Shown here piece after piece: positions 1 through 23,100 of a stretch of DNA of 52,684 nt (positions are counted from its first letter, which is position 1; each line of letters begins with the position of its first letter). The notes beneath the pieces are model-generated. The model saw only the letters and a list, made by a program, of their open reading frames with translations, made no database searches and was not told where the DNA came from. Location of the stretch: assembly GCA_903916355.1 (NCBI GenBank), contig CAIWWN010000003.1, positions 1 through 52,684 on the forward strand. The letters are read 5' to 3'. Source of the DNA: an uncultured Burkholderiales bacterium. GTDB taxonomy: Bacteria; Pseudomonadota; Gammaproteobacteria; Burkholderiales; Burkholderiaceae_C. A program made the position numbers and the translations under genes.

Positions 1-32
1 CACTCTTTCCCTACACGACGCTCTTCCGATCT
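1..32. other. Illumina TruSeq adapter remnant (assembly artefact)
   Basis: The first 32 bases match, from memory, the 3' 32 nt of the Illumina TruSeq universal / read 1 adapter, ending in GCTCTTCCGATCT. They are not genomic. The authentic sequence starts at about base 33, inside the coding sequence of the next gene. The end of the contig is therefore a library artefact and not a biological junction. Confidence 0.97.
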
Positions 33-11009: not shown

Positions 11010-12392
11010 TTATGCGGCTCGCGTCAAGCTCTGCAGCACGGCTTTCAGGTCGGGTTGCGCGGCCAAGTTCATGCACAAGTCCCAGGCTTGGTTGGACTGC
11101 GCCAGGCCGATGATGGGTGCGCTTTGGTCGACAAACTTGGCTTTGAGCAGTTCACCGGTCATGGGCTTTTCCAAGCTGCCGATGGCGCGCTCGATGAAGA
11201 TGTGCAGTCTGCGGCCATCGGTGGTCTCTATCGTCACGTCCACCGAGGCTTCGTGGATCGCGCGGTCGACGATCAGCTCCACGCGGTCGCGCAAGGCGAT
11301 GGTGGTGGGTGACAAGACCATCTCGTCAGAATATTCATGCTCGCCCGCTTGGCCTTTGAGGATGGCCACCGCGCAAGAATGGAACACGCTGAACTTGCTC
11401 TCCAAACCGGTTTGCGGGGTTTTCTTGCCGGTCAGCTCTTGCACCAGCGGGTGGGCGCGCACGGTGATGCGGGTGATTTGATCGGCCGTCAAACCGTGCT
11501 GGTTGCGCAGTTGCACGCAGGCGTCGATGGCGGGGTGAATCACGATGCCGCAAGCAAAAGGCTTGTAGGTGTTGAGCGCGATTTCCCAGGTCTGGCCCAG
11601 GTTCTCGGTGATTTCAGCCCAGTCGGTTTTGTCAGAGAACACTTGCATCAGGCCGCGCGGCGCTTCCAGCGCGCGGTGCGAGGCGGTGAAGCCGTGACGC
11701 GCCATCAAGGCCGACATCAGGCCGGCTTTGGCCGCGGCGCCGGGGTGGAAAGGTTTGGTCATGGTGCCAAACTGCTCGCGCAAACCGACCGGCTGCGAAG
11801 CCGCAATGCCCAGCGCCATTTGCGTGTGCGCCGCGTCCAGGCCGAGCAAACGCGAGCACGCTGCAGCGCTGCCCAACATGCCGGTCGAGCCGGTGATGTG
11901 CCAGCCGCGGTCGTAGTGGTGCGGGTACACCGCGTTGCCCACGCGGCAAGACACTTCCACGCCCAACACCAAGGCGTCAATCACCTGACGGCCAGAGGCG
12001 CCAATGTGCTCGCCCAGCGCCAGCACCGCCGAAGCCACAGGGCCTGCGGGGTGGATGATGGTTTTCAGGTGCGTGTCGTCAAAGTCAAAAGTGTGCGAGC
12101 TGATGCCGTTGATCAAGGCGGCGTTGGCCATGTCGACCCGTTCGCTGCGGCCCAGCAAAGCGGCTTGCGGTGCGGGCTCCAGCTCTTGCACAGCGGCCAA
12201 GGCGGCTTGCACGGTTTCATGGGTGCTCGGACCCACCGCGCAACCGGCCCAGTTGGCAAAGGTGCGGTGCGCTTGCTGCTCGACCTCGTCGCTCCAGCCT
12301 TTGGAAGGATGGGTGGCAACGAAGTGGGCCAAGAGCGCCGTCACAGCGGGGGCATGGGCGTCTGCTGTGACGGTAGTGTTGCGTGCGGTCAT
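11010..12392 (-). CDS. MmgE/PrpD family protein (2-methylcitrate dehydratase / cis-aconitate decarboxylase fold)
   Basis: 460 residues, full family length. Helical N-terminal half with NGISSHTFDFDDTHLKTIIHPAGPV (about 98-122) and SQPVGLREQFGTMTKPFHPGAA, both highly typical; the C-terminal lid follows from about 270. No prpB or prpC lies nearby, so a methylcitrate-cycle role is unlikely; many members act on other branched or cyclic acids. A strong palindrome lies in its promoter at 12444-12465 and a GntR gene lies upstream on the same strand. Confidence 0.9.
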   Translation of the reverse strand: MTARNTTVTADAHAPAVTALLAHFVATHPSKGWSDEVEQQAHRTFANWAGCAVGPSTHETVQAALAAVQELEPAPQAALLGRSERVDMANAALINGISSHTFDFDDTHLKTIIHPAGPVASAVLALGEHIGASGRQVIDALVLGVEVSCRVGNAVYPHHYDRGWHITGSTGMLGSAAACSRLLGLDAAHTQMALGIAASQPVGLREQFGTMTKPFHPGAAAKAGLMSALMARHGFTASHRALEAPRGLMQVFSDKTDWAEITENLGQTWEIALNTYKPFACGIVIHPAIDACVQLRNQHGLTADQITRITVRAHPLVQELTGKKTPQTGLESKFSVFHSCAVAILKGQAGEHEYSDEMVLSPTTIALRDRVELIVDRAIHEASVDVTIETTDGRRLHIFIERAIGSLEKPMTGELLKAKFVDQSAPIIGLAQSNQAWDLCMNLAAQPDLKAVLQSLTRAA

Positions 12393-12443
12393 TGGAGGGG
12401 AACCCTTGCGAGAAATGAAAACAAGGGCGCATCATAAAACGAT

Positions 12444-12465
12444 TGCCAACTGTCAACAGTTGGCA
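12444..12465. promoter_or_regulatory. Perfect 22-bp palindrome in the mmgE/prpD-like promoter
   Basis: TGCCAACTGT and ACAGTTGGCA, perfect 10-bp arms with a CA centre, in the 102-bp gap between gntR and the mmgE-like gene. The TGT-CA-ACA core resembles the GT..AC half-site pattern bound by GntR/FCD regulators. Probably the operator through which the neighbouring GntR protein controls the mmgE-like gene. Confidence 0.6.
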
Positions 12466-12494
12466 GGCGTATTTCTCGCTCGTTGAGCGCTTCG

Positions 12495-13217
12495 TTAACG
12501 CCCCACCACCAAGCGCATCGCGGGCATGACTTGCTCGGCTTCGCTGCGCCGCTCCAGCGCTTGGCGCATGTTCATTTGCGCGACTTCGGTGTGTTCTTCT
12601 GCCAAGGCTTGGGCGCGCGCGCCCTCGCCGCGGCGCAAGGCATCGAGCAGCATGTGGTGTTGTCGGTGCGCATACATCATCCAGTCGCGGTCCTTGACCA
12701 TCGCGCCTTGCATGGGCAACATGGCCGAGGCCGGCGCGAAAGGCAGTTTGTCGTTCATTGCGATGGCGCGTTGCAGTGCCCGGTTGCCACTGGCTTCAAG
12801 GATCAGGGCGTGAAAGCGATCGTTCATGCTGACGTAGCGCGCATAGTCTTGGAGGGACAAGGTGCTGGAGGCCAACGCCAGGTCACCTTCGTCAAGGCAA
12901 GATTGCAAGTCCATGGCCACTTGCCGCGATAAACCGTGCTCGGCCACCAACCTGGCCGCCATGCCCTCGAGCAAACCGCGCACGGCAATCGCATCTGTCA
13001 CCTCGCGCACCGAAAACTGGCGCACCACAAAGCCGCCCGTGTCATTGGCTTGCACAAGGCCCTCTTGCTCCAAGGTGACCAGCGCGGCGCGAACGGGCGT
13101 GCGCGATGAACCCAGAAGCTCGGCAATTTGCTGCTCTGCCAAACGGCGTCCAGGCTCGAACTCACCACGCAAAATGCATTCGCGCAACTGCAGTAAAACG
13201 GTTTCTTGCAAACTCAT
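12495..13217 (-). CDS. GntR-family regulator (FadR/FCD subfamily)
   Basis: 240 residues from ATG 13217. An in-frame extension to 13466 runs over the divergent Rieske gene and is rejected. The winged helix spans about 5-70 (RRLAEQQIAELLGSSRTPVRAALVTLEQEGLV); the all-helical FCD effector domain spans about 78-220 (MNDRFHALILEASGN, with metal-binding His candidates). It is divergent from the Rieske/GS-like operon with only 64 bp between starts, and a GGTATACC-core palindrome lies in that gap. It is the most likely local regulator of that operon and of the mmgE-like gene downstream. Confidence 0.92.
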   Translation of the reverse strand: MSLQETVLLQLRECILRGEFEPGRRLAEQQIAELLGSSRTPVRAALVTLEQEGLVQANDTGGFVVRQFSVREVTDAIAVRGLLEGMAARLVAEHGLSRQVAMDLQSCLDEGDLALASSTLSLQDYARYVSMNDRFHALILEASGNRALQRAIAMNDKLPFAPASAMLPMQGAMVKDRDWMMYAHRQHHMLLDALRRGEGARAQALAEEHTEVAQMNMRQALERRSEAEQVMPAMRLVVGR

Positions 13218-13246
13218 GCCCCTGACTGTACACTGAATCAAAATTT

Positions 13247-13256
13247 CGGTATACCG
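13247..13256. promoter_or_regulatory. Palindrome CGGTATACCG, candidate GntR operator
   Basis: Perfect 10-bp palindrome midway between the divergent starts of gntR (13217) and the Rieske oxygenase gene (13282). FCD-type GntR proteins commonly bind GGTATACC-like sites. It would overlap promoters in both directions. Confidence 0.55.
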
Positions 13257-13281
13257 TTTTTGAAATTCAGAGGGCATCCCC

Positions 13282-14661
13282 ATGAAAGCAGAGCAAAACG
13301 AACTGTTGACCCGCATTGGGCCCGGCACACCATGTGGCGCCTTGTTGCGGCAGTACTGGCAACCTGTGGCCTTGCTGGACGAGTTTGACCCCCTCTTGGA
13401 GCCGCGCATGGCGGAACGCCCCATGAAGGCCGTCCGCCTGATGGGACAAGACCTGGTGCTTTTCAAAGACGAACAGAGCCGCTGGGGTTTGATAGACCGC
13501 GACTGTCCGCACCGCGGCGCCGACTTGGCTTTTGGCCGGCATGAAGGCGATGGCGTTCGCTGCCCCTTTCATGGCTGGAAATTCGACGTGTCAGGCCAAT
13601 GCCTGGAAACGCCGGGCGAGCCCGTGGGCAGCAAACTGTGTGAACGCGTCAAGCAACGCAGTTACCCGGTGATGGAGCAAAGCGGGGTGCTGTTTGCCTG
13701 GATGGGCGAAGAAGGCAAAGCGCCACCGTTTCCAAAGTTTGATTGTTTTGCTGCGCCAGCTAGCCATGTATTTGCTTTTAAGGGCATGTGGCAATGCAAT
13801 TGGCTGCAGGCCTTCGAGGTCGGCATCGATCCGTCGCACACCTCTTTTTTACACCGCTTTTTGAACGACGAATCACTGGAAGGCATCGGCGACAACCCGG
13901 GCGGCAAACAATTTCGCAGTGCCAGTGCGGGCGAGTTCAACGGCGAGCGCTGGCCCATGACGCGCATCATGCGCGAGTTCTGCCAGCCCGAGATCAGCTT
14001 TGAGCAAAAACCATGGGGCTTGCAACTCACCACCTTGCGGCCCATGACCGAGGACTTGACGCATGTGCGGGTGACGCATGAAATTTTTCCGCAGACTTTT
14101 GTGATCCCGCTTTCGGAGACACTCACCATCACCCAGATGCATGTGCCGATCGATGACACGCACACCTACTGGTACTCGTTCTTCACCAGTTTTGCCGGCC
14201 CTGTGGACAAACAAGCCATGCGTAACCAACGCACACAGTACATACCGCCGCCCCTGTACATCCCCCAATCGGGACGCCACAACGACTGGGGTTTTAACCC
14301 GCAAGAGCAACGCGAGTCGACCTATCTTGGCATGGGTGAAGACGATATCAATGTCCACGACCAATGGGCGGTAGAGAGCATGGGCGCTATTCAGGACCGC
14401 ACCCGCGAACACCTGGGCACCACAGACAAAGTGATCATGGCCAACCGCCGCATTTTGCTGCAGGCCATTGCCACGGTTCAGGCGGGTGGGTCTGCGCCTT
14501 TCATGGCCAACCCTGCAGAGTCCGCACACCAACAAGGACCCGACACCGTTGATGGCATTGCACCTGCAGGCACTTGGAACACCTGGTGGAAAGCCAGAGT
14601 TCAGGCCAAGCGCGATGGGGCGCCGTGGACTCAGCATCACAAAGACAAAGTGCCGGCGTGA
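13282..14661 (+). CDS. Rieske non-heme iron oxygenase, large (alpha) subunit
   Basis: 459 residues. Rieske 2Fe-2S centre: Cys75-Pro-His77 and Cys94-Pro-Phe-His97 within CPHRG and CPFHGWK. Mononuclear iron site: NWLQAFEVGIDPSHTSFLHR, with bridging Asp183 and His186/His191. The single-subunit-type C-terminal domain resembles the phthalate 4,5-dioxygenase / o-demethylase group. It inserts oxygen into an aromatic or N/O-methylated substrate using electrons relayed by a ferredoxin. The first gene of the operon; its TGA overlaps the GTG start of the GS-like gene. A ferredoxin follows two genes on, but no ferredoxin reductase is in the window. No separate beta subunit is present, as expected for this group. 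Confidence 0.92.
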   Translation: MKAEQNELLTRIGPGTPCGALLRQYWQPVALLDEFDPLLEPRMAERPMKAVRLMGQDLVLFKDEQSRWGLIDRDCPHRGADLAFGRHEGDGVRCPFHGWKFDVSGQCLETPGEPVGSKLCERVKQRSYPVMEQSGVLFAWMGEEGKAPPFPKFDCFAAPASHVFAFKGMWQCNWLQAFEVGIDPSHTSFLHRFLNDESLEGIGDNPGGKQFRSASAGEFNGERWPMTRIMREFCQPEISFEQKPWGLQLTTLRPMTEDLTHVRVTHEIFPQTFVIPLSETLTITQMHVPIDDTHTYWYSFFTSFAGPVDKQAMRNQRTQYIPPPLYIPQSGRHNDWGFNPQEQRESTYLGMGEDDINVHDQWAVESMGAIQDRTREHLGTTDKVIMANRRILLQAIATVQAGGSAPFMANPAESAHQQGPDTVDGIAPAGTWNTWWKARVQAKRDGAPWTQHHKDKVPA

Positions 14662-16136
14662 CAGCATTCGCAAGCTCTTGCGGCATGCGGGACACGGCAC
14701 GTGCAAAGGCCGTAGAACGCTTGCTTGAACTCGTACAAGCCAGTGGCCTGGAGTTGGTGCGTGTGGGCTGGTGCGACTTGCACGGTGTGGTCCGCGGCAA
14801 GACCTTGGTCGCCTCTGCTCTCCAGCGCGCTTTAGAAGAAGGCGTGGGCATGGTCAGCACGCTGATGCTCAAAGACACCTCAGACCGCACGGCCTTCAAA
14901 GTGTTCGAGCCAGGTGGCACCGACTCTTTGCCAGGCTTTGGGCAAGCCAATAATTTAGTTTTGTTGCCCGACCCTGAAAGCTTTCAGTTGCTGCCTTGGA
15001 CCGAGTCGACCGGCTGGCTGCGCGCCCAGCCCTGGTTCCCGGACGGACGTCCCGTCGAGATCGATACACGACGGGTATTGCAACGCGCGCTTGAGCGGCT
15101 CCATTCAGCGGGCCTGGCGATGCGCTGCGGTCTGGAAGTCGAGTTCCACATCTACAAGATAGAGAACACCGACGCACAAATGGACCCCGAGCTGGCCGCC
15201 TGGCCCGGCGATGCACCGCACGTGAGCATGATCCACCCGGGCTACAACTTACTGACCGAGTCCTGGTTTGACATGGCCGAGCCGGCCATGCGCATCGTGC
15301 AACGGACCGCGCAGGCGCTCGGTCTCCCCCTTTTGTCACTCGAAGCCGAGATGGGTCCCAGCCAAGTCGAAGCTGTGTTCGATGTTTCTGATGCCCTGAC
15401 CGCCGCCGACAACATGGTGCTGTTTCGCAATGCCGTCAAACAGGCCTTGCGACGCGCCGGCTACCATGCCACGTTCATGTGCAGGCCACCCTTTCCCAAC
15501 ATCATGTCCAGCGGCTGGCACCTGCACCAATCGCTGGTCGACGCATCGACCGGCCACAATGTATTTCAGCGCGAGACACCCGCGCAAGGCAGTACCTCAC
15601 TGGATGCGGGCTACAGCCTGTCCGATTTGGGTGAACACTACCTGGCCGGCCTGCTGGCCCATGCCCCCGGCATGACCGTTTTTTGTACACCGACAGCCAA
15701 CGGGTTCGGACGTTTCAAGCCGAATGCATTGGCACCGCAGTCGGTCCTGTGGGGCCGTGACAACCGCGGTGCGATGCTGCGCGTGATTGGCGAGTGTGGT
15801 GACCGCAGCACCCGCATTGAAAATCGGCTCGGCGAGTCAGGCGCCAATCCCTATTTGTACATGGCCTCGCAAATCCATGCGGGCATGGACGGCATCGAAC
15901 GCCAACTGCGTGCACCGCCAGCCACCAATGACCCCTACAACAACCAAGCCCACAAGTTGCCCTCCAATCTGGGTGAAGCGCTTGAAGCACTCGGCCAAGA
16001 CGCCAGCTTGGTCAAGGCCTTTGGCGCTGACTTTGTCGCTTATTACACGCAAATCAAAAGCGCAGAAGCTCTGCGTTTTGAGCAGGCCGAGGACAAAACC
16101 GAGTTCCATCGGCGTGAATATTTTGGCAGGATTTGA
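14658..16136 (+). CDS. Glutamine-synthetase-like gamma-glutamyl amide ligase
   Basis: About 492 residues. GTG 14658 overlaps the preceding TGA (GTGA); ATG 14685 is the alternative start. Beta-grasp N-domain (GWCDLHGVVRGK), then the catalytic domain with ATP/metal residues: GLEVEFHIYK (about 160), EAEMGPSQVEAVF, the His-containing MSSGWHLHQSL loop, and FGRFKPN..APQS..WG.DNRGAM with its substrate-binding arginines. This is the branch of PuuA, IpuC and AdoQ/TdnQ, which join glutamate to amines (putrescine, isopropylamine, aniline) rather than to ammonia. Next to a Rieske oxygenase this recalls the aniline pathway, where the amine is glutamylated before oxygenation. Confidence 0.88.
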   Translation: MTAFASSCGMRDTARAKAVERLLELVQASGLELVRVGWCDLHGVVRGKTLVASALQRALEEGVGMVSTLMLKDTSDRTAFKVFEPGGTDSLPGFGQANNLVLLPDPESFQLLPWTESTGWLRAQPWFPDGRPVEIDTRRVLQRALERLHSAGLAMRCGLEVEFHIYKIENTDAQMDPELAAWPGDAPHVSMIHPGYNLLTESWFDMAEPAMRIVQRTAQALGLPLLSLEAEMGPSQVEAVFDVSDALTAADNMVLFRNAVKQALRRAGYHATFMCRPPFPNIMSSGWHLHQSLVDASTGHNVFQRETPAQGSTSLDAGYSLSDLGEHYLAGLLAHAPGMTVFCTPTANGFGRFKPNALAPQSVLWGRDNRGAMLRVIGECGDRSTRIENRLGESGANPYLYMASQIHAGMDGIERQLRAPPATNDPYNNQAHKLPSNLGEALEALGQDASLVKAFGADFVAYYTQIKSAEALRFEQAEDKTEFHRREYFGRI

Positions 16137-16472
16137 ATGATCACCGTTCACTTTGTATCGATTGCAAACGATGGCGCTCGCCATCAAACGTCTGTGCAAA
16201 CCCTGCCAGGCCACAGCCTGATGGACGCCGCCAGCGATGCAGGCATTGAAGGCATTGCTGCAGACTGTGGTGGCTTGTTGACCTGCGCCACGTGCCATGT
16301 CATAGTGAACGAAGGTTGGTTAGAACAATTGCCACCAGCGAGTACCGACGAGCAAGCCATGCTCGACTTCACTGCGGTACCGCACAATAAAAACAGCCGC
16401 CTGAGTTGCCAGATACAACTGACCCAAGCCCTAGACGGTTTGACGGTCGCACTCCCAGCCACCCAGTACTGA
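16137..16472 (+). CDS. 2Fe-2S ferredoxin (adrenodoxin/FdxB type)
   Basis: 111 residues; cluster ligands in CGGLLTCATC (Cys44, Cys50, Cys53) and LSCQ (Cys90), the C-x5-C-x2-C-...-C spacing of vertebrate-type ferredoxins. It starts at the base after the GS-like stop. It most likely feeds electrons to the Rieske oxygenase at 13282. Its reductase must be encoded elsewhere. Confidence 0.92.
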   Translation: MITVHFVSIANDGARHQTSVQTLPGHSLMDAASDAGIEGIAADCGGLLTCATCHVIVNEGWLEQLPPASTDEQAMLDFTAVPHNKNSRLSCQIQLTQALDGLTVALPATQY

Positions 16473-17261
16473 ATGTCCAACATGGTTCAGCCTTATCTTG
16501 AATTAAGCGGCATCCAGAAAACATTTGGCACTGGCCTGTTGCAGACCCACGCACTGGGTCATATCGACCTGCGCGTTGTGGAAGGAGAATTTTTAGCGAT
16601 TGTCGGCCCGTCAGGTTGCGGCAAATCTACACTGCTTCAGATTGCCGCCGGTTTGACACCCGCATCTGCGGGCACCGTGCAGTTCAATGGCTTGCCGGTC
16701 AACGAACCACCATCGGGCATCGTGTACTTGTTTCAGCAGTATGGCAACTCGCTGTTCCCTTGGCGTACTGTGCTTGCAAACGTGGCTTTTGCTGTAGAAC
16801 ACAAGCCCGGCATGACACGCGCACTGGCTCGCGCTCACAGTCTTCGTTATCTGGAGATGGTCGGGCTGGCAGATTTCGCCCATCGCTATCCTTGGCAACT
16901 GTCTGGCGGCATGCAACAGCGCGTAACCATAGCCCGTGCACTTGCGGCTGAACCCCGCATTTTGTTGATGGATGAGCCCTTCAGCTCGGTTGACGCACTG
17001 ACTCGCTTGGAACTGCACGCCCTGATCTTAGACCTGTGGACTCGGCACCGCTTCACCGCCGTGCTTGTCACGCATGATGTCGACGAAGCCGTTTTTCTTG
17101 CTGACCGCATTGTGGTGCTGTCTTCCCGTCCCTCTAAAGTGAGTAAGGTCATTGAAACGGGATTGCCTCGTCCCCGTGACAGCATCAGCACCAGCGAGTC
17201 CGACCGGTTTTTGTCACTCCGACATGAAATTCTGTCCATGCTACTGGGACGATCGGCATGA
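16473..17261 (+). CDS. ABC transporter ATP-binding protein (SsuB/TauB/NrtD family)
   Basis: 262 residues. Walker A GPSGCGKST (about 48-56), Q-loop FQQYGNSLFPWRT, signature LSGGMQQR, Walker B ILLMDEPF, H-loop LVTHDVDEA. The Q-loop region with LFPWRTV is typical of the nitrate/sulfonate/taurine family. It powers the permease pair for uptake of the operon substrate. It begins right at the ferredoxin stop and its TGA overlaps the permease ATG. Confidence 0.93.
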   Translation: MSNMVQPYLELSGIQKTFGTGLLQTHALGHIDLRVVEGEFLAIVGPSGCGKSTLLQIAAGLTPASAGTVQFNGLPVNEPPSGIVYLFQQYGNSLFPWRTVLANVAFAVEHKPGMTRALARAHSLRYLEMVGLADFAHRYPWQLSGGMQQRVTIARALAAEPRILLMDEPFSSVDALTRLELHALILDLWTRHRFTAVLVTHDVDEAVFLADRIVVLSSRPSKVSKVIETGLPRPRDSISTSESDRFLSLRHEILSMLLGRSA

Positions 17262-18025
17262 AGCCATCGACCATCGAAAAAGCTTTGGGTGCGATGACCA
17301 TTGTCGCGATTCTGGCCGCGCTCGAGATTGCTGTGCGTATCGGTTACGTTAACGTCGCTTTAACACCTTCGCCATCGGTCGTGCTTGCAAAAACTGCTGG
17401 AATTATTGCTGCTGGCAGCTTATGGGAGCCGCTTAGAAGTACTTTGTATTTGCTCTTTACTGCTTATCTGTTGGGCTCTTTTTTGGCGATTGGTTTCGGA
17501 CTCCTGATGGGTCGCTTTCAACCACTGTATGACTTGTTTGAACCTCTCATTGAATTTTTAAGACCCCTTCCAAAACCAGCGCTCTTACCGCCACTCATTC
17601 TGTTTCTCGGATTGGGCGATGCGATGAAACTCACCGTGGTCGGAATGGGCGTTTTTTTTCCAGTGCTGGTCAACACCATACAAGGTGTGCGTGGGACGGA
17701 TCCGGTCCAACTCGATGTAGCTCGCACCTTGGGCCACTCACGCGCCAGTGCACTTGTTTCCGTGGTTTTGCCCAGCGCATTGCCGATGATTTTTGCAGGT
17801 CTTCGTGTCAGTCTCGGCTTAGGCCTGATTCTGGTCGTTATCGCCGAGATGCTTGCTGGCACAGGCGGTGTCGGCTACCTCATCATCGACATGCAACGCA
17901 GTTTCCAAGTCGCCAATATGTATGCATGGATTTTGATTTTGGCAGTTCTTGGTTTTGCGCTGAATTACTTGTTTTTGCAGTTTGAGCGCAAAGCCATCCC
18001 TTGGGCCATTCCCAGTTCAACCTGA
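17258..18025 (+). CDS. ABC transporter permease 1 (SsuC/TauC family)
   Basis: 255 residues, about six helices, with the EAA-loop sequence ARTLGHSRASALVSVVLPSALPMIFAGLRVSLGLGLILVVIAEML in the usual place. ATGA overlap with the ATPase gene. The third codon positions here are clearly richer in A/T than in the flanking housekeeping genes, a sign of foreign origin for this stretch. A second permease gene sits at 20648. Confidence 0.92.
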   Translation: MKPSTIEKALGAMTIVAILAALEIAVRIGYVNVALTPSPSVVLAKTAGIIAAGSLWEPLRSTLYLLFTAYLLGSFLAIGFGLLMGRFQPLYDLFEPLIEFLRPLPKPALLPPLILFLGLGDAMKLTVVGMGVFFPVLVNTIQGVRGTDPVQLDVARTLGHSRASALVSVVLPSALPMIFAGLRVSLGLGLILVVIAEMLAGTGGVGYLIIDMQRSFQVANMYAWILILAVLGFALNYLFLQFERKAIPWAIPSST

Positions 18026-18067
18026 GTTATCACCCTCACTTACCCACCTTTATTAGGAGAGTCTGAC

Positions 18068-19039
18068 ATGAATGCATCTTCACTCAAGCGACTGCTGCAG
18101 ATCGCCACTTTAGCGATCAGTGGGCTGCTGGCCTTGACGCCTGGCGCACAAGCGCAACCAACAAAAATTCGGGTCAGCACCATCCCGATTATCGATACAG
18201 CCCCCTTGCAAGTTGGTATTGCCAAGGGATTTTTTGCTGCCGAAGGTTTGGAGGTTGACACCACGCCGACTGCAGGCGGCGCAATGGGTTTGCCTGCACT
18301 GGCGGCAGGCCAGGTACAGATTACCTTCAGCAATATCATCTCAGTGGTATTGGGTGCCAAGCAGGGTCTTGGATTTGAAATCATAGCGGCAGGGAGCAAC
18401 ACGGGGGACAAAACACCGGATCTTGCAGCCCTGATTGCCAAGAAAGGAAGCACCATCAAGACGGGCAAAGACCTTGAAGGTAAACGCGTTGCGGTCAACA
18501 CACGCAACAACATCATTTGGCTCTACGCTCGCGCCTGGGTGCAGGCCACAGGCGGCAACCCCGATGCTGTGACCTACCTCGAAGTACCGTTCCCGCAAAT
18601 GGTTGATGCAGTCAAGGGGGATCGCGTGGATGCCGCTTTTGTGGTCGAACCTTTCTTGAGTGCAGGGGTATCTTCTGATGCTGTCAGTATTGTGGGTTGG
18701 CCCTATAACGCAGTGCAAAAACGCATCCCCGTGAGTCAATATGCGGCGACCAAAACATTCATCGCTCAAAACCCCGGCGTGATCGATCGCTGGGTTCGTG
18801 CTTACAACAAGGCAGTGGATTGGACCAACCAAAATCAAGGCTCCGAAGAGTGGACCAAAATCATCTCGGCCTATACACGTTTGGCACCAGAACAGATCCG
18901 TTCATTGAGCCTACCTGCTTATGAGAAGACCGTCGACCCTGCAAGCATAGACATGGTTGTCGAGCAAATGCGCAAGAACAAAATGATCGAAGGCCCCTTC
19001 GACAGCAAAGCATTGCTTTACCGTACGGCGGTCAAATAA
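18068..19039 (+). CDS. ABC transporter solute-binding protein (NMT1/SsuA-like)
   Basis: 323 residues with a signal peptide (cleavage probably near GAQA-QP, residue 29). Periplasmic binding fold: STIPIIDTAPLQVGIAKGFFAAEGLEV, KDLEGKRVAVN, DRVDAAFVVEPFL. Receptors of this type bind sulfonates, nitrate, pyrimidines, phthalate or similar small anions or heterocycles. Good ribosome site TAGGAGAG ahead of ATG 18068. It supplies the ABC permeases on either side. Confidence 0.93.
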   Translation: MNASSLKRLLQIATLAISGLLALTPGAQAQPTKIRVSTIPIIDTAPLQVGIAKGFFAAEGLEVDTTPTAGGAMGLPALAAGQVQITFSNIISVVLGAKQGLGFEIIAAGSNTGDKTPDLAALIAKKGSTIKTGKDLEGKRVAVNTRNNIIWLYARAWVQATGGNPDAVTYLEVPFPQMVDAVKGDRVDAAFVVEPFLSAGVSSDAVSIVGWPYNAVQKRIPVSQYAATKTFIAQNPGVIDRWVRAYNKAVDWTNQNQGSEEWTKIISAYTRLAPEQIRSLSLPAYEKTVDPASIDMVVEQMRKNKMIEGPFDSKALLYRTAVK

Positions 19040-19047
19040 GGCGCACC

Positions 19048-20658
19048 ATGCCAAGCCACACACAGTTACTGCTGGGCGACATCGTCACCATGGACCCGGC
19101 TCAGCCTCGCGCTGAGGCCATCGGCATCGTGGCCGGCAAGATCGTGGCTGTGGGTAGCGAAGCCGATGTACGCGCCAGATTGGGGGCCGTGAGTGAAACA
19201 CGCAGAATCAAAGGCACCCTCGTTCCAGGTCTCATTGACACGCACAATCATATGCACTGGACCGGGATGCAGAGCCGGTTGGTTGACCTCTCGCAATCGC
19301 GTTGCATAGCCGACATTCAGTCAGCCATTCGCGCTTATGCCCAGGCCTACCCCAACGAGACCTGGATCAGCAGCGGTAGCGGTTGGCATGTGGTGAATCT
19401 TCAAGAGCAGCGCTACCCCACACGGCAAGAGCTTGACGCCGCTTGCCCCGATCGACCTGTGTACCTGCCACGTGTTGGCCATGCAGCTGTGGCCAACACC
19501 ATGGCGCTCGATCTTGCGGGTATTCATTTACACACACCCGACCCCGAGGGTGGAAAAATACTGCGTGACAGTCAGGGCGTGCCCAACGGTATTTTGATGG
19601 AGCCACCCGCATTTGAACCCGTTGCGCGATTGGTGCCCCCTACCTCGATTAAAGACCAAGAGCAAGCATTGCGCAAAATTCAAAAGCGCTACCATGCGGC
19701 CGGATTGACGGGCGTCATGGACCCAGGCGTCACGCCTGAGATGATGCGAATCTACCAGTCCCTGTGGTCACGTGGCGAGCTCACAGTCCGCTCGGTGCTC
19801 ATGCCCCTGGCAGATTCAAGCCGCCCAGTCGAAGAAACTCTGGCTCGAATTTCATCAAGTGCCATGCGTACCGGTTTTGGCGATGCCTTCCTGAAGTTGG
19901 GTGGCGTCAAGCTGTTTTTAGATGGCGGCGCATCGTTAGGTACAGCGTTGATGCGAGAACCCTACCCGGACGAACGCTGCAACTGTGGCATTCAAGTCAC
20001 GCCAACCGAAACCTTTCGCCTGATTGCCAAGCGATGCGCTGAACAAGGCTGGTCCATGGGGGTCCATGTTGTTGGAGGTCAAGCAATCGATATTGCACTG
20101 GATGTTTTTTCCGAAATCAACGAAGAAATCCCCCTGCATGATTTGCGTTTTTCGTTGATACACGCTTACCTTTGGCCAGAGGCCCGCAACATTCAACAGG
20201 CCGCCAAAATGGGGGTCACAGTTGCAACGCAATGCTCCATGCAATACACCTTTGGTCCCATCTTGGTTCAGCGCTTTGGTGCCGCCATGATGGCCTTGGC
20301 CACGCCTGTTCGCAGTTGGCTGGATGGTGGCGTGAAGGTTGGTGGAGGTTCAGACTCTCCAGTGACCCCTTTTGAGCCTCTGCTGGGATTGTGGCAAGCG
20401 CGCAGCCGCAGCATTGCTGGCAGCGAAGAGCCTATAGGCCGTCTGCAGGCCATCAGCGGTGAAGAAGCCTTAGCGCTTTACACCCGCGATGCGGCTTATC
20501 TGTGTTTTTCAGAACATGAGCGCGGCATGATCAAAACAGGACTCTTGGCCGACTTCACTGTGCTCTCGGTCAATCCTGTGGACTGTGATCCTGATGCATT
20601 ACGAGACGCACAGGTATTAGGCACGGCTGTTGGTGGAGTGTGGGTGCATGGTGATTAA
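19048..20658 (+). CDS. Amidohydrolase (YtcJ-like, amidohydrolase-3 family)
   Basis: 536 residues. N-terminal beta-sandwich, then TIM-barrel metal site: DTHNHMH (His66, His68), KLGGVKLFLDGG, GVHVVGG, LIHA, and GGGSDSP with its Asp. YtcJ-family enzymes cleave C-N bonds; one characterised member is an N-substituted formamide deformylase. In this operon it could hydrolyse an N-acyl or gamma-glutamyl amide, or open a ring amide. It starts 8 bp after the receptor gene and overlaps the start of the second permease gene by 11 bp. No signal peptide is seen. Confidence 0.88.
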   Translation: MPSHTQLLLGDIVTMDPAQPRAEAIGIVAGKIVAVGSEADVRARLGAVSETRRIKGTLVPGLIDTHNHMHWTGMQSRLVDLSQSRCIADIQSAIRAYAQAYPNETWISSGSGWHVVNLQEQRYPTRQELDAACPDRPVYLPRVGHAAVANTMALDLAGIHLHTPDPEGGKILRDSQGVPNGILMEPPAFEPVARLVPPTSIKDQEQALRKIQKRYHAAGLTGVMDPGVTPEMMRIYQSLWSRGELTVRSVLMPLADSSRPVEETLARISSSAMRTGFGDAFLKLGGVKLFLDGGASLGTALMREPYPDERCNCGIQVTPTETFRLIAKRCAEQGWSMGVHVVGGQAIDIALDVFSEINEEIPLHDLRFSLIHAYLWPEARNIQQAAKMGVTVATQCSMQYTFGPILVQRFGAAMMALATPVRSWLDGGVKVGGGSDSPVTPFEPLLGLWQARSRSIAGSEEPIGRLQAISGEEALALYTRDAAYLCFSEHERGMIKTGLLADFTVLSVNPVDCDPDALRDAQVLGTAVGGVWVHGD

Positions 20659-21418
20659 AAAGTGGCTGTCCCGAGCATCTGGCTTTGCGCTGGTCGCAGG
20701 CTTGTTGTTATTGTGGCAATTGTCCTCACTGTACTGGGTGCAAAGTACCAACTGGCCCCCAGTCAGTGAGATTGCAAAAGCCTTAATCGCTGGCATGCGC
20801 TCTGGTGAACTACCCGAAGTATTTGGGTCCAGCCTCTATCGTATGTTGTTGGGCTACGCTGGTGGAGTCGCTGTAGCGGTGGCCTTGGGACTGTGTATGG
20901 CAACAGTGCGCTGGGTTCGCGCGTCACTCGAGCCTATGCTCGAATTTCTTCGCCCCATCCCTATCCCGGCTATCGTGCCCCCCCTGATCCTTATCTTGGG
21001 CGTTGACGATGCAATGAAGATTTTTGTGGTGGCTTTTTCTGCATTCTTCCCGGTGTTGATCAATACCATTGCGGGCGTTCGATCAGTGGAACCCACCGCA
21101 CTGGCCGTGGCCCGAACATTCAAACACAGTCGTATCGCAGTTGTTTTGAAAGTCATCGTGCCTGCCAGCCTGCCCTACATTTTGGCGGGCATGAGAGTGA
21201 GTTTGGCGCTCGCACTGATCGTCACGGTTGTGGCTGAAATGATCGCTGGTTCGGCCGGTATTGGTTATTACATCCTGACGATGCAGTACGCCATGCGAGC
21301 GAGCGACATGTACGCCTCCATTTTCTTGTTGGCGGCCACGGGCTACTTTCTCAATCGACTGATTTTGTCTGTAGAACACAGCGTTCTGCATTGGTACCAC
21401 CGCAACGCCAAAACCTAG
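20648..21418 (+). CDS. ABC transporter permease 2 (SsuC/TauC family)
   Basis: 256 residues from ATG 20648, supported by GGTGGAG upstream; the GTG at 20630 is less likely. Six-helix permease with the same EAA block as the first permease (ARTFKHSRIAVVLKVIVPASLPYILAGMRVSLALALIVTVVAEMI). The two permeases are related but clearly different. With a single ATPase and receptor in the operon, they probably form a heterodimer, unlike the usual homodimer of this family. Confidence 0.9.
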   Translation: MVIKKWLSRASGFALVAGLLLLWQLSSLYWVQSTNWPPVSEIAKALIAGMRSGELPEVFGSSLYRMLLGYAGGVAVAVALGLCMATVRWVRASLEPMLEFLRPIPIPAIVPPLILILGVDDAMKIFVVAFSAFFPVLINTIAGVRSVEPTALAVARTFKHSRIAVVLKVIVPASLPYILAGMRVSLALALIVTVVAEMIAGSAGIGYYILTMQYAMRASDMYASIFLLAATGYFLNRLILSVEHSVLHWYHRNAKT

Positions 21419-21426
21419 AGGTGCTT

Positions 21427-22323
21427 ATGCAAAAATGGACCATCGGCAACACCACGGTGACGCGCATCGAAGAGCAACTCGGCGCAGGTAGCTTTCCTCC
21501 AGAGCAGTACTTCACAGGTTTCGACCGCGAAGTCCTGAACCAGAACTTGGATTGGCTGGTGCCACACCACTACATTCCCTCGCAAGACGCACTCATCACC
21601 AGTGTGCATTCTTGGCTCATTCAAACACCTCATCACACCATCCTTCTCGACAGTTGCTCGGGCAACCATAAGGATCGCCACTGGTGGCCACGATTTCACC
21701 AACTCAATACACCCTTTTTAGAGCGACTTGCCGAAGCTGGTGTGCAACCAACCGACATCAGCATGGTGTTGTGCACGCATTTGCATGCAGACCACATAGG
21801 ATGGAACACTTGCCTGCAAAACGGACGATGGGTGCCAACCTTCCCAAATGCGAAGTACCTTTTTTCACGCATTGAAAACGACTACTGGGATCCATCGAAA
21901 AACCCAAGCCTTGTTGATGACCCTGCGCGTCGTATTGCTTATGTGGACAGCGTATTGCCAGTCATTGATGCAGGCCAAGCACAGCTGGTGGAAGGCGTCC
22001 ATCAGATTGACGACAACCTTTTGGTCGAACCCGCACCGGGCCACACACCAGGTCACATCTTGCTCAAGTTAAACGACACCCAAGGGAGTGGCGTTTTTTG
22101 TGGCGACGTCATTCACCATCCCCTCCAAATTTACGCGCCTGATTGGAACACCCAGTTTTGTCAAAGTCCTGAGCAAGCCCGTGCCACTCGTCGTCGCATG
22201 CTGTGCTATTGCGCAGAGACCGGTGCCAAACTTTTTCCGACGCACTTTGGCGCTCCCCATGTCACAGAGATTGAAGACAAATCAGGCAAATTTGCGGCTC
22301 AATTTATTCCATCACAAGGGTAA
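21427..22323 (+). CDS. MBL-fold hydrolase (AHL-lactonase-like)
   Basis: 298 residues from ATG 21427, with AGAGGTG as ribosome site; 21391 would overlap the permease. Dinuclear metal motif THLHADHIG (His118, His120, Asp122, His123), APGHTPGH with its His, GDVIHH with Asp, and a late His (FPTHFG). Sequence outline is that of lactonase/MBL hydrolases with a long N-terminal lead-in. In the operon it probably opens a lactone or lactam intermediate. Last gene of the operon; it ends 34 bp before a convergent GntR pseudogene. Confidence 0.87.
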   Translation: MQKWTIGNTTVTRIEEQLGAGSFPPEQYFTGFDREVLNQNLDWLVPHHYIPSQDALITSVHSWLIQTPHHTILLDSCSGNHKDRHWWPRFHQLNTPFLERLAEAGVQPTDISMVLCTHLHADHIGWNTCLQNGRWVPTFPNAKYLFSRIENDYWDPSKNPSLVDDPARRIAYVDSVLPVIDAGQAQLVEGVHQIDDNLLVEPAPGHTPGHILLKLNDTQGSGVFCGDVIHHPLQIYAPDWNTQFCQSPEQARATRRRMLCYCAETGAKLFPTHFGAPHVTEIEDKSGKFAAQFIPSQG

Positions 22324-22357: not shown

Positions 22358-23077
22358 TTATTTTTTATTACCAATTTGAACAGTCGCCGCCAATCGGTCC
22401 CAGCCGTGGGCCACGTGCTCTGCCAAGGCTTGTTCAGCCCGCTTGGTATCACGAAGCACCAAGGCATCCAGAATGGCACGATGCTCTTGGTTGGATATTT
22501 TCAAGCTGCCCTCTTGCACCAAGCCCCGCTGGCGAAACAAGTGCGCTTGATTCACAGTAGCCATGTACATGGTGGCCAGCATGGCATTGTCAGCAATGTG
22601 CATCAACTGATCATGAAACGCCAAATTAACCTGGTAGTACTTGGGCATGTCCTACCGCTCGGCGGCCTCTTCCATGGCGACCAACTGAGCGTCCAGCGCC
22701 TTCAGTTGCAGGTCCGTGATGCGTTGTGCGGCCAGACGTCCAATCAGGCCTGACAACGCGCCACGCACCTCGTACAACTGGCGAGCATCATTGAGCGACA
22801 TCTCACGCACGAAAACACCCAGATTGACCACGCTGACCAGCAAGCCCGCTTCTTCGAGGCTGCGACAAGCCTCGCGCACAGGACCGCGACTGACATCAAG
22901 TCGCAAGGCCAACTCGCTTTCATTGATCCGCTCACCGGCTTTGAGTTGCCCCGAGCCAATCAGGTGGGCAATTTCTTCGCGCACGATGGATGTCAGGGTG
23001 CGCTGCCGTCGCTGACGAATTTGCGCCACAGCCGAAGAAGTGCTGGCAGTTTTGGAAGTCAGTGTGGTGGAACGCAT
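22358..23077 (-). pseudogene. GntR-family (FCD) regulator interrupted by an amber codon
   Basis: A 240-codon frame on the - strand with one in-frame TAG at 22654-22652 (codon 142). N-terminal half: winged helix with INESELALRLDVSRGPVREACRSLEEAGLL. C-terminal half resumes in the same frame as MPKYYQVNLAFHDQLMHIADN, the metal-binding FCD helix, with HRAILDALVLRD.KRAEQALAEHV farther on. Everything else is intact, so a single-base change explains the stop. It converges on the catabolic operon and could have been its second regulator. Confidence 0.85.
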
Positions 23078-23100
23078 CTCAACCAATTTTAGGGTGTGCG

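Follow-up and report, generated by a model that had tools for sequence, protein, structure and literature searches.

A recurrent Rieske oxygenase-ligase-ferredoxin unit joined to a rare importer and hydrolase cassette in a Burkholderiales bacterium, with a possible role in the oxidation of acidic aryl amines

A 52,684-nt stretch of DNA from an uncultured Burkholderiales bacterium (contig CAIWWN010000003.1; the whole stretch is called the window below) carries, at positions 13247 to 22323, an operon of nine genes that is built from two modules. The first is a core of Rieske oxygenase, glutamine synthetase-like ligase and ferredoxin genes, and the comparisons described below showed that the Rieske and ligase genes, mostly with the ferredoxin, recur as a unit of the GoaS kind that has its own regulator and operator in about half of its loci. 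The second is a cassette of importer and hydrolase genes, which, from codon use and distribution, we read as acquired. We put at about even the chance that the core glutamylates and oxidizes an aryl amine and that the cassette works with it in the steps proposed below.

Coordinates are those of the window, and the starts of the open reading frames (ORFs) were refined by eye from the sequence. The list of ORFs and a Pfam scan confirmed all nine genes, every one on the plus strand and with the short overlaps that the original prediction, made from the letters of the sequence, had described: 4 bp (GTGA) between the Rieske and ligase genes, 4 bp between the ATP-binding cassette (ABC) ATPase and the first permease, and 11 bp between ytcJ and the second permease. 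The operon and its divergent regulator are as follows.

12495 to 13217, minus strand: gntR, GntR/FCD transcriptional regulator (Pfam GntR and FCD), divergent to the operon; ATG at 13217 picked by eye
13282 to 14661, plus strand: rhoA, Rieske oxygenase alpha subunit of the LigXa/phthalate 4,5-dioxygenase type (Pfam Rieske and LigXa_C; C75/H77/C94/H97, D183, H186, H191, D355/D360)
14658 to 16136, plus strand: gsL, predicted gamma-glutamyl arylamine ligase, GoaS-like (Pfam Gln-synt_C)
16137 to 16472, plus strand: fdx, [2Fe-2S] ferredoxin (Pfam Fer2; best NCBIfam match fdx_isc, under its cut-off)
16473 to 17261, plus strand: abcA, ABC ATPase (Pfam ABC_tran; nitrate and taurine types nearest, under their cut-offs)
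17258 to 18025, plus strand: perm1, ABC permease (Pfam BPD_transp_1)
18068 to 19039, plus strand: sbp, NMT1/THI5-like periplasmic receptor (Pfam NMT1)
19048 to 20658, plus strand: ytcJ, Amidohydro_3 metal-dependent hydrolase (Pfam Amidohydro_3)
20648 to 21418, plus strand: perm2, second ABC permease (Pfam BPD_transp_1)
21427 to 22323, plus strand: mbl, metallo-beta-lactamase (MBL)-fold hydrolase, lactonase-like (Pfam Lactamase_B; HxHxDH read by eye; under lactonase cut-offs)

The most plausible start of gsL was the GTG at 14658, which overlaps the Rieske stop codon and from about which its relatives align. No oxygenase beta subunit, reductase or class-I glutamine amidotransferase (GATase) was found by Pfam among the ten scanned proteins (the nine and GntR), as had been predicted, and the operon lacks three parts of the five-gene aniline dioxygenase system.

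Recurrence of the core was seen from both of its main genes. When a genome collection was scanned with only the Rieske protein as query, at least 589 relatives were confirmed, and the best 80 of them are the named loci referred to below. A ligase gene lay 3' of the Rieske gene in 72/72 of these loci with enough sequence, all found through the Rieske protein, and a ferredoxin gene followed gsL in 54 of 70 eligible loci; a divergent gntR homologue was present in 34/75. Starting from the ligase, a Rieske gene of the main or the sister clade was adjacent in 38 of 39 regions, a sample from which the aniline-type L140 was set aside and which shares some genomes with the Rieske-based one. Main-type ligases occurred in 52 of 299 sampled family genomes, or about one in six, these 52 being picked by hand from the ligase search at an identity of at least 49%, with fragments and the window's own genome included. 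The core loci were chromosomal in Limnohabitans, Polaromonas, Ramlibacter and Hydrogenophaga. A protein of about 100 residues with an ABM domain was often encoded as a fourth core gene just behind fdx (19/63 eligible loci, L044, L047, L053 and L062 among them).

The ligase belongs with the enzymes that glutamylate aryl amines. Its best match in the Protein Data Bank (PDB) was NpaA1 (8wwu/8wwv/8x6z; 356 bits, the next match having 153), and it fell under the NCBIfam cut-offs for GlnA (207 vs 429 bits), type III glutamine synthetase (217 vs 470) and the PuuA type (220 vs 650). The three structures are those of the 1-naphthylamine glutamylating enzyme, according to its description (PMC11335346). 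The AlphaFold model of the ligase (predicted local distance difference test score, pLDDT, 81.6; predicted template modelling score, pTM, 0.87) returned only NpaA1 chains in the first 13 Foldseek rows, at template modelling scores of 0.81-0.84. In a 47-row tree, Comamonadaceae-type ligases (23 rows) lay on one side of a branch with support 99/99, sister plasmid ligases (10 rows) on one side of another with 83/80, and aniline types (5 rows) were grouped with 88/89, or 100/100 when ungrouped rows were ignored; the root is uncertain, as the branches to the PuuA and GlnA outgroup rows are very long. By tree, PDB search, fold search and cut-offs, the ligase grouped with NpaA1/AtdA1-type enzymes as the glutamyl-amide-type ligase that had been predicted, and membership of the type I or III glutamine synthetases, or of PuuA/GmaS, was rejected. 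The original prediction had named two findings that would speak against its pathway, a grouping with true glutamine synthetases and genes that never co-occur in other genomes; neither was seen, as the ligase grouped elsewhere and ligase and Rieske genes recur together.

The Rieske protein was of the LigXa/phthalate-dioxygenase type, with CxH/CxxH and 2-His-1-Asp motifs (the metal-binding Asp assigned by position), a LigXa_C domain and no beta subunit; its nearest structures (PDB 9ina, 7fhr and 7fjl) were also of the phthalate-dioxygenase type. Every one of the 104 main and 18 sister regions (counted with duplicates) had C75, H77, C94, H97, D183, H186, H191 and D360. Oxygenases of this type need no beta subunit, and the absence of one was therefore to be expected. 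Linked reductases were rare in the 80 named loci (sister-type L100 with 33% identity, weak and on the opposite strand; aniline-type L059 with 31%), and a sister-type reductase lay nearby in 11 of 17 sister loci. When reductase genes were sought elsewhere in the window genome, two Fpr-like matches were found (140 and 152 bits, under the cut-off of 390), and the best match to the sister reductase reached 35%. Three GATase/PuuD queries had no match in the sequence examined at the 80 named loci, and a missing GATase is usual in this clade. Two plasmid-type relatives differed in their oxygenase genes: L178 has a LigXa_C protein without a Rieske domain match (407-1648), and L180 has an oxygenase alpha gene (11840-13513) beside a separately annotated small Rieske protein, so that both possibly carry split Rieske oxygenases beside Lys-type ligases.

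The residues of the ligase tunnel hint at the class of substrate. In NpaA1, the wall of the amine tunnel includes a loop of the neighbouring subunit (V68'-M81'); almost no aniline use is left in the F75A and F86A variants, and the W235A variant is inactive (PMC11335346). At NpaA1 position 75, Lys was found in the window, in 93/93 distinct main and 18/18 sister ligases, and in 5/5 additional plasmid ligases that have no beta subunit gene linked to them (L178, L180-L183); it occurred in 0/7 ligases beside alpha/beta Rieske oxygenases (L118, L119, L120, L140, L173, L176 and L177), which have F, V or H instead. Position 80 was Arg in 91 of the 93 distinct main ligases (one K, one H) and Arg or Lys in 17 of the 18 sister ones. 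The Lys75 counts cover 118 regions, the window and duplicates included, with 111 distinct relatives; six genomes fetched twice were counted once in the distinct counts, 6 of 124 regions without a ligase of at least 380 residues (L041, L043, L081, L087, L095 and L101) fell outside them, and L175 and L184, which lack annotation, were left out. Behind these counts, a Rieske gene was adjacent in 116 of 117 fetched regions (98/99 main, 18/18 sister), and an aniline-type beta-subunit query had no match in the 117 (one query, absence being judged otherwise by annotation). The acidic pair E232/E234 of NpaA1 (E229 and E231 in the window) was invariant in 21/21, and position 235 was Leu, Phe, Met or Ile in main ligases. 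With K75, F86 and M235, the window ligase retains only F86 of the aniline-type F75/F86/W235. The replacement of Phe75 by Lys, mostly together with Arg80, would make the tunnel entry cationic and suggests that the substrate is an anionic aryl amine, similar to an aminobenzoate.

The gap between gntR and rhoA contained a promoter-like element, an operator candidate and a sequence like a ribosome-binding site, all found by pattern search or from the sequence.

13206 to 13234, plus strand: promoter-like TTGCAA-17 bp-TACACT, facing the operon (pattern search of the gntR-rhoA gap)
13247 to 13256, no strand: palindrome CGGTATACCG, probable GntR operator, a little 3' of the -10 element (pattern search)
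13269 to 13274, plus strand: AGAGGG, ribosome-binding-site-like, ahead of the Rieske ATG (sequence)

The start reported for the whole feature, 13247, coincides with the first base of the perfect palindrome CGGTATACCG. Upstream sequence of 250 bp or more was available for the window and 78 of the 80 named loci. In these 79, a degenerate operator pattern was found in 35/36 loci with a divergent gntR, in 1/43 without it and in 50/4000 random windows of the same loci; for the promoter pattern the counts were 30/36, 0/43 and 28/4000. Both patterns track the presence of a divergent gntR, which indicates that regulator and site come and go together. Of 46 main-group gntR-rhoA gaps, 27 contained the exact core GGTATACC (in three pairs of these gaps, both come from one genome fetched twice), against 0/12 in the sister clade; the 58 gapped loci, 1.07 Mb in all, had 30 copies in total. 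The operon is probably controlled by GntR through CGGTATACCG as the predicted site. Many sister-clade Rieske genes (e.g., in L130, L132 and L137) have TTGCATGCAA-like palindromes upstream, possibly the operator of that clade's own GntR.

From these features we infer a substrate class, an order of reactions, a position of attack, regulation by GntR and a role for the cassette. The substrate of the ligase would be an anionic aryl amine, for which an aminobenzoate is the best candidate; at the cost of ATP, its amino group would be joined to the gamma-carboxyl group of glutamate. The gamma-glutamyl anilide would then be oxidized by the single-alpha Rieske oxygenase, whose electrons would come through the linked ferredoxin and a ferredoxin reductase coded outside the operon. 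If the amide-bearing carbon is attacked, as happens in aniline oxidation, the products would be glutamine and a dihydroxybenzoate, either protocatechuate or one of the gentisate type, the ring of which would be cleaved by enzymes coded elsewhere. In the window and two relatives, the NMT1-type ABC transporter would take up a masked precursor, the YtcJ amidohydrolase would release the amine from it ahead of glutamylation, and the MBL enzyme would perhaps cleave an ester or lactone. A wider claim, to which we give a little less than an even chance, is that the locus represents a second class of glutamylation-dependent aromatic-amine oxygenase, in which a Lys-type GoaS works with a ferredoxin and a LigXa-type Rieske oxygenase of a single alpha subunit. 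This class would serve carboxylated aryl amines (aminobenzoates, perhaps vitamin-derived p-aminobenzoate) in about one-sixth of the sampled family genomes, and in the window it would be extended upstream by an acquired module for import and de-acylation of a masked aminobenzoate.

The cassette was far rarer than the core. Its ABC and ytcJ genes were found in the window and in only two of the 80 named loci, with 8 kb downstream covered in 61 of the 80 and 6 kb upstream in 60: L035 has the window's order with the MBL gene included, and L051 has the cassette inverted on the other side of gntR, with no match there to the MBL query. The receptor was found in 1 of the 299 family genomes, the window's own, at E <= 1e-60. 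An indivisible nine-gene pathway, as originally predicted, was rejected on these counts, because the core recurs without the ABC/YtcJ/MBL part. Nor was there support for the prediction that both hydrolases act last; ytcJ is coded within the importer genes, which makes hydrolysis of an imported compound before glutamylation at least as likely. The importer genes fit the NMT1/THI5 (NitT/TauT) class, with receptor, ATPase and permeases all present; PDB matches of the receptor were weak, its predicted model (pLDDT 36.9, three sequences) was not used, and those of the YtcJ protein were two uncharacterised hydrolases (3icj and 3igh). Between carriers, the window's receptor shared 82% and 68% identity with the other two, and the ligases 65% and 69%. 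The A/T-rich codon use that had been noted in this part held by G+C content at synonymous third codon positions (GC3s), as the seven genes from fdx to mbl (0.498-0.594) were all under the lowest of 24 flanking genes (0.608), seven of which were chosen by hand, and rhoA, gsL and gntR (0.666-0.711) were inside the flank range. By codon likelihood it held for five of the seven genes only (z -1.99 to -3.39), fdx (z -1.33) and mbl (z -1.28) being unremarkable. By GC3s, the ferredoxin is on the foreign side.

The low GC3s would also fit a cassette that is functionally unrelated to the core and merely inserted behind its promoter, and so would the single receptor among the 299 genomes and the closest core relative, L034, which has a TonB receptor and an ExbB-type gene, and no cassette, downstream of the core (630 bp upstream covered). 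We regard this as unlikely, although it is the strongest of the alternatives, since the cassette stands beside the same core in two arrangements (same order in L035, inverted beyond gntR in L051) and the distant L178 pairs its ligase and LigXa_C protein with an NMT1-type importer and two permeases. L035 and L051 were found through the core, and solo cassettes were detectable only in the 299-genome receptor search.

The proposed oxidation of an aminobenzoate by the core can be compared with the pathway genes near it, which were named from one representative each (NCBIfam or Pfam). Downstream of the core were an FAA hydrolase of the fumarylpyruvate-hydrolase type in 31/59 loci (immediately 3' of fdx in 13), a gentisate dioxygenase in 16/60, a 3-hydroxybenzoate 6-monooxygenase in 12/61 and a tripartite ATP-independent periplasmic (TRAP) transporter receptor in 28/57. 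The representatives of the gentisate dioxygenase (519 vs 442 bits) and the 3-hydroxybenzoate monooxygenase (544 vs 459) passed their cut-offs; that of the FAA hydrolase passed the Pfam cut-off only, and its name rests on neighbours. In the window genome, one gene resembles those of protocatechuate 4,5-dioxygenases (576 vs 317 bits for the subfamily). Palleronia LCG004 (L178) has its ligase, LigXa_C protein and NMT1-type importer beside pcaGH, Methylobacterium nodulans (L116) has PnbB-family (4-hydroxylaminobenzoate lyase) and nitroreductase genes near the ligase, and Caballeronia insecticola (L182) has, by annotation, DUF4863 and nitroreductase genes nearby. The TRAP importers, together with the genes of PnbB, nitroreductase, protocatechuate or gentisate metabolism that accompany some relatives, point to aminobenzoates as likely substrates. 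The window genome, L178 and the PnbB neighbours agree with protocatechuate as the product, whereas the Polaromonas, Ramlibacter and Hydrogenophaga loci agree with one of the gentisate type. In three alphaproteobacterial clusters, a CHMI-family tautomerase-like gene lay directly behind the ligase (L117 11569, L178 9430 and L180 10368; named by Pfam for L117 and L178 and by annotation for L180).

The gentisate genes allow for another route, in which the core para-hydroxylates glutamyl-aminobenzoate to 5-(glutamylamino)salicylate, deglutamylation follows, and a gentisate/5-aminosalicylate dioxygenase opens the ring, making the core part of gentisate-type catabolism. The FAA gene directly behind fdx in the 13 loci agrees with this, and the 3-aminobenzoate route of Comamonas QT12 passes through 5-aminosalicylate (PMC9584955). 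Gentisate dioxygenases were in excess in main-type-ligase genomes (26/52, vs 44/247 without the ligase; p=3e-6 over the 299 genomes), and 16 of the 52 have one within 15 kb of the ligase. However, the other 26 of the 52 have none, and the window genome had no match at E <= 1e-60. A GGACT (gamma-glutamylamine cyclotransferase family) gene, which could release the amine, stood divergent and just upstream of the Rieske gene in 12 Limnohabitans-type loci (L067, L068, L070, L072, L073, L075, L076, L078, L088, L089, L090 and L094; two identified by Pfam, the rest by tblastn), but gntR, TRAP and gentisate genes were all absent from the sequence examined of these loci, four of them under 13 kb. No GGACT gene was found in the window genome, and the gene may be only a local neighbour. 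Taken together, the para-hydroxylation route appeared rather improbable, and gentisate as an obligate product was rejected, given that the window genome had no match to the dioxygenase and that no excess was left once adjacent cases were removed.

Several observations weigh against our own proposal of an aminobenzoate-oxidizing core with an allied cassette. Gentisate genes, the commonest linked pathway, do not arise simply from a lateral dioxygenation of glutamyl-aminobenzoate, and the association is largely local, as 16 of the 26 dioxygenases were those adjacent to the ligase and the remainder (10/36 vs 44/247) gave p=0.17. In 23/57 loci there were no TRAP or gentisate-type genes nearby. The Lys/Arg loop lies in a low-confidence part of the model (residues 68-97, monomer), and Lys75 could serve assembly instead. 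With only three cases of the cassette known, chance could explain its place beside the core. One main-type ligase (L124) had no Rieske neighbour, and three genomes of the same genus in the sample had no ligase match.

Other amines were weighed as substrates. An aliphatic or benzylic amine of the isopropylamine type, masked by the ligase and then hydroxylated by the Rieske enzyme at a carbon near the nitrogen, was improbable. LigXa/VanA-type Rieske enzymes often dealkylate, which counts in its favour. Isopropylamine breakdown likewise employs a glutamine synthetase-like ligase (PMC11335346), but the recognised linked genes were all aromatic (gentisate, 3-hydroxybenzoate, protocatechuate and PnbB), and the ligase was distant from the PuuA and GmaS types, to which that comparison was limited. 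Least probable of all was a neutral aryl amine (aniline or toluidine), with the Lys/Arg loop irrelevant to substrate: NpaA1 is the nearest solved structure, the acidic amine pocket is retained, the chemical logic is shared and the aniline-type ligase L118 has Phe rather than Trp at position 235, so that Trp235 is not universal there, but F75A and W235A cripple NpaA1 (PMC11335346) where these ligases have Lys and mostly Leu, Phe or Met, the Rieske enzyme comes from a different subfamily without a linked beta subunit, and the three GATase/PuuD queries went unmatched at the named loci.

Outside the operon, an MmgE/PrpD gene upstream (11010-12392) had no match of at least 60 bits in the sequence examined at the 80 named loci and was excluded from the unit. 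Beyond the cassette, a second GntR-family gene (22358-23086, minus strand) is interrupted by one in-frame stop, either as a pseudogene or through a sequence error. Window positions 1-32 gave one exact match, where none was expected, to what we take to be an Illumina adapter; the first ORF starts inside this assembly artefact.

Among known systems, the aniline and 1-naphthylamine clusters (AtdA, TdnQ and NpaA1-A5) share with the window a glutamine synthetase-like gamma-glutamyl arylamine ligase beside a Rieske oxygenase, NpaA1 being the nearest in sequence and fold. Unlike them, the window has no beta subunit, linked reductase or GATase-like amidase; it has a LigXa/phthalate-type Rieske enzyme and a separate ferredoxin, Lys75/Arg80 in place of Phe75/Ser80, and the order Rieske-ligase-ferredoxin instead of ligase-GATase-alpha-beta-reductase. 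The plasmid clusters of Cupriavidus HN-2, Polaromonas JS666, Methylobacterium nodulans, Novosphingobium SA1 and Caballeronia insecticola resemble the window in having a Rieske alpha subunit, a Lys-type ligase and a ferredoxin, no annotated beta subunit and, in three, GntR. They differ in a flavin adenine dinucleotide-dependent ferredoxin reductase in each, in GATase, PuuD-like or glutaminase genes in several, and in PnbB/DUF4863 and nitroreductase genes in some; we know of no study of these five. Many sister loci differ from the window in the TTGCATGCAA-like palindromes upstream of the Rieske gene. Phthalate 4,5-dioxygenase and LigXa oxygenases share the domain make-up and the lack of a beta subunit with the window's Rieske protein, and to our knowledge they have not been reported to work with a glutamylating ligase. 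The mab cluster of Comamonas QT12 (3-aminobenzoate) possibly shares the substrate class, a likeness by description and not by sequence; its 5-aminosalicylate dioxygenase is related to gentisate dioxygenase (family match), and the main text of its paper contains none of the terms 'glutamine synthetase', 'ferredoxin' or 'Rieske' (PMC9584955).

Degraders of the pollutants aniline, chloroaniline and naphthylamine are known to glutamylate the amine before a Rieske enzyme oxidizes it. A LigXa-type Rieske, ligase and ferredoxin cluster was not found described in the full-text literature searched by title and start of abstract, a scope mostly outside subscription journals; the chemistry is that of aniline oxidation, and the variant on it appears new in that literature. 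If the proposal is correct, Limnohabitans, Polaromonas, Ramlibacter and Hydrogenophaga carry the glutamylation-Rieske strategy on their chromosomes and direct it at acidic aryl amines, aminobenzoates for example, and Lys75/Arg80 (NpaA1 numbering) would be a genomic signature separating acid-arylamine from aniline ligases. The locus also provides a candidate GntR operator and a receptor that are open to direct assay. Compared with these systems, the cluster appears to be a recurrent relative of aniline breakdown that has drawn little notice and that here carries a rare uptake-and-hydrolysis addition.

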